A DNA stretch of 64,000 bases from Buchnera aphidicola (Ceratoglyphina bambusae) (GTDB taxonomy: Bacteria; Pseudomonadota; Gammaproteobacteria; Enterobacterales; Enterobacteriaceae). This document shows, in pieces, positions 48,591 to 52,307 of the stretch; position 1 is the first letter of the stretch; each line of letters starts with the position of its first letter. A program made the translations under genes and the position numbers. The notes beneath the pieces were generated by a model that had not been told where the DNA came from, did no database searches, and saw only the letters and a list, made by a program, of their open reading frames with translations. The stretch is from positions 124,001 through 188,000 of the forward strand of contig NZ_CP134982.1 of the NCBI RefSeq assembly GCF_039363085.1. The letters are read 5' to 3'.

Positions 48591-49045
48591 TTTATATGTC
48601 ACTTTTATATGTTATATGTATAACATTTTAAAATTTATAATTAATTATTTTTTTTTTAAAAAAAAATTTTATTTTTACAAGTTTTAAAAATAATGTTTTT
48701 TTATTTTTTTTATTTTTTTTTAAATTTTATTTAACAAAAATTTAATATAAAAAAATATAAAATTCTTTATTTTTTATTTTTATTAAAATATATATTGTTT
48801 TTTAAGATTTTTTATATAGAAAATATATAAACTAATTTCTGTATTTTATAAATTTTTATTTTTTGTTCTTATAAGTTTTGTTATAATTTATTTAAATTTG
48901 TCAAACATAAGTTATAAGTTTTATTAATATAATAAGAATATTATAAAAAATTTTTAAATAAATATTATAGCATTTTAAAATTTAAATTTAAAAATTTTTA
49001 ATTTAATATTTAATATTTTATATTATTATTTAATATAATTTATTT
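48591..49045. other. Gene-free region between rsmH and ftsA (lost wall-synthesis cluster)
   Basis: About 455 bases, nearly all A/T, joining two same-strand genes that in E. coli flank the dcw cluster (ftsL, ftsI, murE, murF, mraY, murD, ftsW, murG, murC, ddlB, ftsQ). None of these is present and I see no recognisable fragment. The region includes the ftsA leader. Confidence 0.65.
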
Positions 49046-49990
49046 TTATTTTTTTTTTAATATAGCAACTCTTAATATCGCGCTTCTAGAACTTGGATTT
49101 TTTTTAATCTCTTTTTTTTTTGGTTTTATTTTTTTTAAAATTTTTAATTGTTTGTTATAATTAAGTTTTTTGACTTCTTTATTTGTTATAGGCAATTTTA
49201 TTGGTATGTTTAAATTCATGCTATTTTCTTTCATAAATTTTTTTATTATTTTATCTTCTAATGAATTAAAACTTATTACTAATAATCTTCCATTTGGGGC
49301 TAAAATTTTTAATGAATCTTTTAATATTTTTTTTATAGATTTTAATTCTTTGTTAATATAAATTCTTATTGCTTGAAATGATCTAGTAGATGGATTTTTT
49401 TTTCTATTTTTGTTAGAAATTACATTATTTATTATTTTAGATAGTTCTAATGTTCTTTTTATTTTTTTTTTTCTTCTGTGTTTAATTATAGATTTAGCTA
49501 TATTTTTTGAAAATCTTTCTTCTCCAAATTTTTTTAATATTTTACATATGTCTTTCTCACTACTTTTATTTATCCACTCTTCAGCAGAAATACCAATGTT
49601 TTGATTTATTCTCATATCTAACGGTCCATCTAAAGTAAATGAAAATCCTCTTTTTTTGTCATATATTTGATTTTTAGATATTCCTAAATCTAATAATATT
49701 CCATTTACTTTTTTTGTTATATTAAATTTTTTTGTGTATTTTAACAAATTTTCAAAAGAATCATTTATAAAATGAAAATTTTTATTTTCAATTTTTTTTG
49801 AAAACTTCAAAGTATTTGGATCTTTATCAAAAGAATATAAAAAACCATTTTTTTTTATTTTTTTTAATATATTTTTTGAATGCCCTCCTAATCCAAATGT
49901 ACAATCTATATATATTCCATTTTTTTTTATTTTTAAATTTTTTATTACTTCTTTTAATAATACTGAAACATGATTTTTATATATTTTCAT
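49046..49990 (-). CDS. rsmH: 16S rRNA (cytosine-1402-N4)-methyltransferase
   Basis: Methylates C1402 in the ribosomal P site; 314 residues (313 in E. coli). HVSVLLKEVI at the N-terminus, the SAM-binding DCTFGLGGHS, LLDLGISKNQIYDKKRGFSF and FQAIRIYINKEL are conserved, and the C-terminus ends with the typical NPSSRSAILRVA. It is the only survivor of the start of the mraZ-rsmH-ftsL cluster. It lies 45 bases after ilvH on the same strand. Confidence 0.98.
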   Translation of the reverse strand: MKIYKNHVSVLLKEVIKNLKIKKNGIYIDCTFGLGGHSKNILKKIKKNGFLYSFDKDPNTLKFSKKIENKNFHFINDSFENLLKYTKKFNITKKVNGILLDLGISKNQIYDKKRGFSFTLDGPLDMRINQNIGISAEEWINKSSEKDICKILKKFGEERFSKNIAKSIIKHRRKKKIKRTLELSKIINNVISNKNRKKNPSTRSFQAIRIYINKELKSIKKILKDSLKILAPNGRLLVISFNSLEDKIIKKFMKENSMNLNIPIKLPITNKEVKKLNYNKQLKILKKIKPKKKEIKKNPSSRSAILRVAILKKK

Positions 49991-50035
49991 ATATTTTTAT
50001 TTTTATATTTATAAGATAAATTTTTTTATATTGTT

Positions 50036-50278
50036 TTATTTTTTTTTAATTATTTTTACATGTGATATATTTATCAATCCTAATAATTTTTTTTTTATTT
50101 GATTTGTAATATTTTTACTATTTTTTAGTTTTATTAATGCTTCTGATATTTTTCTATTTTTTTTAAAAGGTTTTACTATTATTTTTTCTATATTATATCC
50201 TCTTTGAGAAAATATTCCTATTATTCTAGAAAGAACTCCTGGTTTATTATCTAATAATATATATAATTTTTTTTTCAT
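50036..50278 (-). CDS. ilvH: Acetolactate synthase III regulatory subunit, ACT domain only
   Basis: 80 residues against 163 in E. coli IlvH. The N-terminal ACT domain is complete and well conserved (LLDNKPGVLSRIIGIFSQRGYNIEKI), but the frame ends where the second, C-terminal domain would begin. Only 45 bases separate it from rsmH, so that domain is deleted rather than shifted out of frame. It follows ilvI after ten bases and is surely cotranscribed. The length is like the single-domain small subunits IlvM and IlvN. It probably still activates IlvI; valine sensitivity is doubtful. Confidence 0.9.
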   Translation of the reverse strand: MKKKLYILLDNKPGVLSRIIGIFSQRGYNIEKIIVKPFKKNRKISEALIKLKNSKNITNQIKKKLLGLINISHVKIIKKK

Positions 50279-50288
50279 TAAAAATTTC

Positions 50289-51983
50289 CTAATATTTTTT
50301 TAGAATCATTTTGTTCATTCCTAAGCCTTTTTTTTGCATAGGATAAACATGTTCTGAAGAATCTATTTTTATATCTAAAAAAACTAAGTTATTTTTTTTA
50401 GTTTTATTTATAGCATATTTAATTTTTTTATACACTTGTGTTTTTTCATTTACTCTTATTCCTATATGTCCATATGACTCTACTAGTTTTACAAAATCAG
50501 GAAGTGATTTCATGTATGATTGAGAATATCTACTTGAATAATTTATATCTTGCCATTGTTTAACCATTCCTAATACACTATTGTTTAAATTTATTATTAA
50601 AATTGAAATGTTATATTGTTTTGCAGTAGAAAGTTCTTGTATATTCATTTGTATACTTCCATCTCCTGTTATGCAAATTACAGTTTTTTTAGGAAATGCA
50701 AGTTTTACACCTAAAGCTGCTGGCAACCCAAAACCCATAGTTCCTAATCCGCCTGAATTTATCCAAAATCTAGGTTTTTCAAAAGAATAATGTAATGCTG
50801 TGAACATTTGGTGTTGGCCAACATCAGAAGCTATATATGCTTTACCTTTCGTAATTTGCCATAATTTTTCTATAACATATTGTGGTTTAATTTTTTTTGA
50901 ATTATTATTATATTTAAGGCTATTTATACTTCTCCAAGATTGTATTTTTATCCACCATTTTTTTATATTATTTTTATATTTTTTTTTTTCAAAAATTTTA
51001 ATTATTTTTTTAATAATTTTTTTTGCATCTCCAATAATAGATATATTAGATCTTATAGTTTTTGATATTGATGTAGGATCTATATCTATGTGAATAATTT
51101 TGGCATTTGGGCAATATTTTGAAACATTGTTTGTAGTTCTATCATCAAACCTAACTCCTATAGCTAATATTAAATCTGAATAATGCATTGCCATATTAGC
51201 TTCATAAGTTCCGTGCATACCTAACATGCCTAGACATTGTATATGTCTTCCTGATATAGATCCTAGCGCCATTAAAGAAGTAGTTATAGGAAAATTTAAT
51301 TTTTCTAAAATTTTTTTTAAATGTTTACTACAGTTAGAAGATATTGTTCCACCTCCTACATATATAACAGGTTTTTTAGATTGTGTTAATTTTTCAAATA
51401 TTTTATTTATTTGTTTTTTTTTGTTATATATTTTGTTCTTATTTTTTATTTTTATTTTTTTATAAAAAAAATATTTTTTATTTACTTCATTTGATAATAT
51501 ATTTTTAGGAATATCAATTACTACAGGTCCTTTTCTTCCATTTAATGATATATAGAAAGATTCATTTATAATATCATATATTTCTTCTGATTTTTTAATC
51601 AAAAAACTATGTTTTACAATAGGTCTAGATATTCCTATCATGTCACATTCTTGAAAAGCATCGTATCCTATTAATGAAGAATCTACTTGTCCTGAAATTA
51701 TTATCATCGGTATAGAGTCCATATAAGCTGTAGCTATTCCAGTTATTGCATTAGTAGCTCCAGGACCTGAAGTTACTAAAACCACGCCTATATTTCCAGT
51801 AGATCTAGCATATCCATCAGCCATATGAGTAGCAGCTTGTTCATGTCTAACTAATATATGATTTATTTTACCTATTCTTTTTATAGAATCATAAATATCT
51901 AAAACAGCTCCTCCAGGATATCCAAATATATATTTCGTATTTTTTTTTATTAAAGATTTTACAACTATGTCCGCTCCTAACAT
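50289..51983 (-). CDS. ilvI: Acetolactate synthase III catalytic subunit
   Basis: First common enzyme of branched-chain amino-acid synthesis; about 564 residues (574 in E. coli). Conserved parts include [13 protein letters not shown], the ThDP-activating Glu in [43 protein letters not shown], and the ThDP/Mg motif [12 protein letters not shown] through NLNN. I place the start at the ATG at 51983 ([11 protein letters not shown]), seven bases after an AAGGTA ribosome site. A TTG at 52013 is in frame but less likely. Confidence 0.97.
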
Positions 51984-52307
51984 TTTTTTTACCTTGTTTT
52001 TTTTATATAACAATTTTATTATTTTGTTTAATAATAATTAAATAATTTTATTTTTTTAAAAAAATATAATTTTAAATTTTGTTATTTTATATAAATTTTT
52101 ATTGTTATAATATTAAATAAAATATAATATTATAAATATTTTTTATCTTTTTTTTCAAAAATTTTATTTTTTTATAATAATATATTCTAATAAAAATTTT
52201 ATTTTTATTTTATGAAATATATATATTATATATAAATAACATTTTAATTAATATTATCATATAATTTTATAAATTGTTTTTTTTAAAATTTTATATAAGA
52301 GATTGTT
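51984..52307. other. Gene-free divergent region between ilvI and degP
   Basis: 324 A/T-rich bases holding the divergent 5' regions of ilvI and degP. I see no leader peptide, no leuA-like gene, no tRNA and no clear hairpin. A TAAGAGATTGTT ribosome site precedes degP at the right end. Confidence 0.55.

Follow-up and report, generated by a model that had tools for sequence, protein, structure and literature searches.

The ilvIH locus

The window, that is the whole stretch of 64,000 nucleotides that was analysed, carries ilvI, ilvH and rsmH on the same strand, with the following features:

50289..52013, minus strand: ilvI, catalytic subunit of AHAS III (listed open reading frame; the likely ATG start is at 51983; TIGR00118, PRK07979)
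50036..50278, minus strand: ilvH, 80 amino acids, single ACT domain, ALS_ss_C absent (open reading frame, spacing, PF22629, TIGR00119)
49991..50035, no strand: 45 bp spacer from the ilvH stop to the start of rsmH; the deletion lies here, and no remnant of the second domain is left
49046..49990, minus strand: rsmH (mraW), the next gene, which bounds the space available to ilvH (PF01795, 342.7 bits)

ilvI lies upstream of ilvH in the same orientation, and a gap of 10 bp separates its end from the start of ilvH. The ilvH frame begins with ATG and has 80 codons; the ATG of rsmH (49990) follows 45 bp past its stop. The Pfam family found in the product was ACT_AHAS_ss (PF22629; residues 5-71, 52.1 bits with a cut-off of 27), with nothing beyond it, and a search for PF10369 (ALS_ss_C) gave zero matches across the 434-kb genome, 13 of 14 control genomes being positive. 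The initial annotation, which had described an ilvH product of about 80 residues with one ACT domain and rsmH 45 bp farther on, is confirmed by these data. It had also named a second ilvH elsewhere as an observation that would speak against it; a second AHAS small subunit was not found, PF22629 matching the genome only once. The third contig of the genome (2175 bp) reads as unknown bases throughout in the sequence analysed.

The 80-residue product scored 58.0 bits with TIGR00119 (acolac_sm), just above the cut-off of 56.9 and over model positions 2-76 of 158, and 63.6 with PRK11895, below the cut-off of 119. By ancestry and gene position it is an orthologue of IlvH, yet, lacking PF10369 and staying under the PRK11895 cut-off, not a typical two-domain IlvH. 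It resembles E. coli IlvH (AHAS III; PDB 2F1F; b0078) in sequence orthology, in adjacency to ilvI and in ACT residues 1-76, but the E. coli protein is 163 residues long and carries ALS_ss_C, with its conserved RSG(I/V)(I/V)G tail, as a second domain, and this half is missing from the window IlvH. In a PDB sequence search the top matches were AHAS small subunits, including 2F1F. A structure predicted with a single-sequence model at moderate confidence (pLDDT 73.5) suggests an ACT fold; the best Foldseek match of this predicted model was the valine-bound single-domain IlvN, and 2F1F was found at TM 0.64.

The product of ilvI scored 819.7 bits with TIGR00118 (cut-off 538), and its best model was PRK07979 (AHAS 3 large subunit). 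Acquisition of an IlvM/IlvN-type gene is ruled out by this pairing with an IlvI-type large subunit and by the family-model scores of the 80-residue IlvH (34.1 versus a cut-off of 128 with the IlvN-type model PRK08178; 24.1 versus 68 with the IlvM model PRK11152). IlvN (AHAS I) and IlvM (AHAS II) likewise have one ACT domain and fewer than about 100 residues, and their proposed origin is deletion of the C-terminal part (PMC5727371); they are, however, old paralogues paired with IlvB or IlvG, whereas the window IlvH is a recent truncation paired with IlvI.

A promoter scan gave only a chance-level result. A scan of genome contigs had a single match, one distant Clostridia locus. Some 440 bp of AT-rich DNA without genes separate rsmH from ftsA (48603-49045); the corresponding stretch in E. 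coli is occupied by ftsL, ftsI, mur genes and ddlB. The gene-free stretch is consistent with the peptidoglycan gene loss reported for the Buchnera of C. japonica (PMC9672956).

Distribution and number of domain losses

The genus to which the window belongs is the Buchnera of Cerataphidini aphids, and the leu plasmid of the genome shares about 81% identity with the plasmids of the Ceratovacuna keduensis and Pseudoregma panicola Buchnera. An ACT-only ilvH of 79-81 amino acids sits between ilvI and rsmH in all six genomes examined for this genus, none of which had a match to PF10369. In the other five species the protein has the same end point and 59-66% identity to the window IlvH, so the truncation cannot be put down to sequencing error or chance. 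The ilvH-rsmH gaps of the six species measure 33-84 bp, and no remnant of the lost domain was recognisable in them. An artefact, whether assembly error, frameshift or a second domain encoded elsewhere, was rejected and has a negligible probability: six species concur, PF10369 is missing in all of them, and before rsmH there is no space for the domain.

When further reduced symbiont genomes were searched with E. coli IlvH as query, 27 matched, and all except one (G131) have an IlvH of 157-168 amino acids. Apart from a second Buchnera-type group, genus g127, nearly all Buchnera-type genomes examined outside the window genus retain this longer form. In one 600-kb symbiont genome (G089) a 550-codon AHAS large-subunit frame was observed (C1:232855-234492), with IlvH unmatched and a weak AHAS-ACT match (8.1e-5); this symbiont possibly keeps an AHAS II (IlvGM) type instead of AHAS III.

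G131 is a member of genus g127, of which 11 genomes were examined (G131, G232, G249-G257; loci L063, L064, L075-L083). Five of these (G131, G252, G257, G249 and G255) have an ACT-only IlvH of 76-85 residues counted from ATG, while six retain 158-168 amino acids, in some cases very degenerate. The genus forms a graded series of ilvH erosion: the least eroded copy, in G253, is full-length with N11, G14 and N29 intact; G232, G250 and G254 have G14 replaced by Asp in a full-length protein; the full-length copies of G251 and G256 are very degenerate; and the five ACT-only species are the endpoint. The ACT-only proteins of g127 end like the window IlvH after about residue 76 and occupy the same operon position, but they arose independently, are younger and also have G14 and/or N29 changed. 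Their gaps are AT-rich (182-272 bp, 3-6% G+C) and close in size to the lost domain, which is no longer recognisable in them.

In a tree of IlvI and RsmH (801 columns, IQ-TREE) the window genus formed one branch (UFBoot 100) and g127 a separate one (UFBoot 100), with G253, which has full-length IlvH, at the base of the g127 branch. The losses of the C-terminal domain in g127 are independent of that in the window clade, where the loss was fixed in the common ancestor. If regain is disallowed, the best tree gives four losses (the window clade, the G131/G252/G257 clade, G249 and G255). Because some placements have weaker support (83 for G249, 46 for G254 with G255), at least three losses is the safer count. 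The loss in the window clade is old and clean, with short gaps free of remnants, and those in g127 are younger. In the literature searched we found no report of natural recurrent IlvH truncation in Buchnera, an absence that is weak evidence; one-domain AHAS small subunits (IlvM, IlvN) and engineered C-terminal truncations are already known.

Selection on the ACT domain

With a codon model applied to 77 ACT codons from the six window-clade species, omega=1 was rejected (2dlnL 147); ilvI and rsmH gave a similar outcome, and omega=1 was rejected for the five ACT-only g127 genes as well (2dlnL 75). Only these rejections were used, the absolute omega values being untrusted because synonymous sites are saturated. 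The ratio of ACT to IlvI divergence was 1.78 (95% 1.32-2.43) in the window clade and 2.58 in g127, compared with a mean of 0.87 for nine clades with full-length IlvH. The excess of the window clade over full-length relatives is 2.06-fold (95% 1.45-2.81; none of 300 bootstraps fell to 1 or lower), and the faster ACT divergence is also seen in branch lengths estimated on a fixed topology. The ACT domain is thus maintained, with its constraint partly relaxed or shifted but not absent. The description of the ACT domain as well conserved holds in so far as purifying selection is evident, but the domain evolves faster relative to IlvI than in full-length relatives, so that relaxed selection, which had been named as evidence against the annotation, is found in part.

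Where the C-terminal domain is retained, its divergence is 1.0-3.3 times that of IlvI, as would fit the more dispensable half of IlvH. In IlvI (window ilvI, 50298-51983), 5 of 221 conserved positions (the same in E. coli and in ≥95% of the full-length relatives) were altered in all window-clade species with a residue there: P177, S184, Y185, L328 and G561 in E. coli numbering. They are candidate contacts with the lost domain, or chance.

Valine site and feedback-resistance positions

When about 80 residues are removed from the C-terminus of E. coli IlvH, the protein reportedly retains activation of IlvI but loses its response to valine. In a passage of PMC11893703 that cites Kaplun 2006, residues L9, N11, L16, N29 and V35 of E. 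coli IlvH are tied to valine binding. The window IlvH carries all five. Throughout the window clade L9, N11, G14, L16, S17 and N29 are retained (6/6 species), and residues 1-31 are 87% identical; V35 is Val in two species, that of the window being one of them, and Ala in the rest. Retention of the contact residues would be unexpected if valine binding were useless, unless they have a role at the dimer interface. All six species have Lys or Glu at position 36, where full-length IlvH outside g127 has Ala or Ser. Asp, Tyr or Phe replaces G14 in 8 of 11 g127 species, and N29 is altered in 8 of 11.

In C. glutamicum IlvN, the substitution A42V (with A89V) or G20D/I21D/I22F leads to feedback resistance (PMC8709942). 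Assuming an offset of six residues, C. glutamicum A42 would correspond to A36 and G20 to G14 of E. coli IlvH. The part of PMC8709942 that quotes Wada 2008 gives 90.8% activity left in valine for C. glutamicum IlvN minus 53 C-terminal residues. By that account this protein is also a C-terminally truncated, feedback-resistant small subunit of the two-domain type, but it was engineered, lost only part of the second domain and comes from a different phylum, whereas the window truncation is natural and comprises the whole domain. The window clade and g127 thus carry different combinations of changes, each at positions or in parts known to matter for feedback.

The initial annotation had proposed that a single-domain form could respond differently to valine. 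This does not follow from the architecture: AHAS I with its single-ACT IlvN is fully inhibited by valine and AHAS II with IlvM is not (PMC5727371), so the number of domains does not predict the valine response, and most valine contacts are kept in the window clade.

Pathway context and interpretation

ilvI, ilvC, ilvD and leuABCD are intact in the window genome. LeuA retains its own allosteric domain (PF08502), which indicates that loss of regulation is not general. ilvE was absent from all 23 genomes searched (13 of 14 control genomes were positive), and the branched-chain pathway is reportedly finished by the host transaminase (PMC4306246). Valine reaching the symbiont AHAS would therefore be host-derived and, as the aphid makes the valine, its inhibition of this enzyme would be a host-to-symbiont signal.

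We consider that the 80-residue IlvH is probably a functional minimal activator of IlvI (AHAS III) with valine feedback weakened or lost. The sequences show that the deletion is complete and clade-wide, and that the ACT domain is under purifying selection beside an intact ilvI. In the ancestor of the Cerataphidini Buchnera the ALS_ss_C domain was deleted down to a short spacer. The ACT domain alone would still dimerise, and bind and activate IlvI, while signalling from bound valine to IlvI, which appears to require the C-terminal domain in two-domain small subunits, would be weakened or lost. The outcome would be an activated AHAS with little valine sensitivity; any benefit to the host, such as the steady overproduction proposed in the initial annotation, would be conjectural. 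With valine produced by the host transaminase from the exported 2-oxo acid, the feedback cut in this way would be that of a host-made end product on the first enzyme of the symbiont.

Part of the same evidence could be read as slow decay, in which IlvI works without a small subunit and ilvH is being lost, the C-terminal domain first. The 2.06-fold raised ACT/IlvI divergence, the rate of the C-terminal domain where it is retained, and the very degenerate full-length copies and several more truncations in g127 all point that way. We nevertheless hold this to be improbable, as the gene and its ACT frame are present in 6/6 Cerataphidini and 11/11 g127 species, both groups strongly reject omega=1, and ilvH has stayed intact although these genomes have only about 20% G+C and their synonymous sites are saturated. 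Alternatively, and with more likelihood than decay, the protein may be a regulator like IlvN, whose single ACT domain binds valine at the dimer interface and still inhibits IlvI, the C-terminal domain being dispensable. The six residues unchanged across the window clade, the high identity of residues 1-31 and the full inhibition of AHAS I would all agree with this, as would the top structural match of the predicted model, valine-bound IlvN, though ACT domains are widely alike. It seems unlikely, but deserves to be kept in mind: position 36, equivalent to that of the C. glutamicum resistance mutation A42V, has changed from Ala to Lys or Glu, a two-domain small subunit becomes less sensitive to valine when its C-terminus is truncated (PMC8709942), and IlvN is an old paralogue that was separately adapted.

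It is quite possible, though we propose it tentatively, that lineages of the Buchnera type severed a feedback loop from host to symbiont more than once and by different routes, the Cerataphidini symbionts by C-terminal deletion and replacement of A36 by Lys or Glu, and g127 by changes of G14 and/or N29 and several domain losses. That domain loss recurs in g127, and that feedback-resistance positions are substituted, hints at a loss that was selected for and not just tolerated. The selected domain loss of the initial annotation accordingly stands as a real loss, fixed in the ancestor of the clade and leaving an ACT domain under purifying selection, and selection for the loss itself may have acted.

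Among close relatives, IlvH thus occurs in nature in full-length, valine-site-mutated and ACT-only forms, each with its own IlvI. With this set, feedback-insensitive branched-chain synthesis in symbionts becomes testable, as does the question of which half of IlvH does what, and the finding bears on end-product control when the host owns the last step of a pathway.
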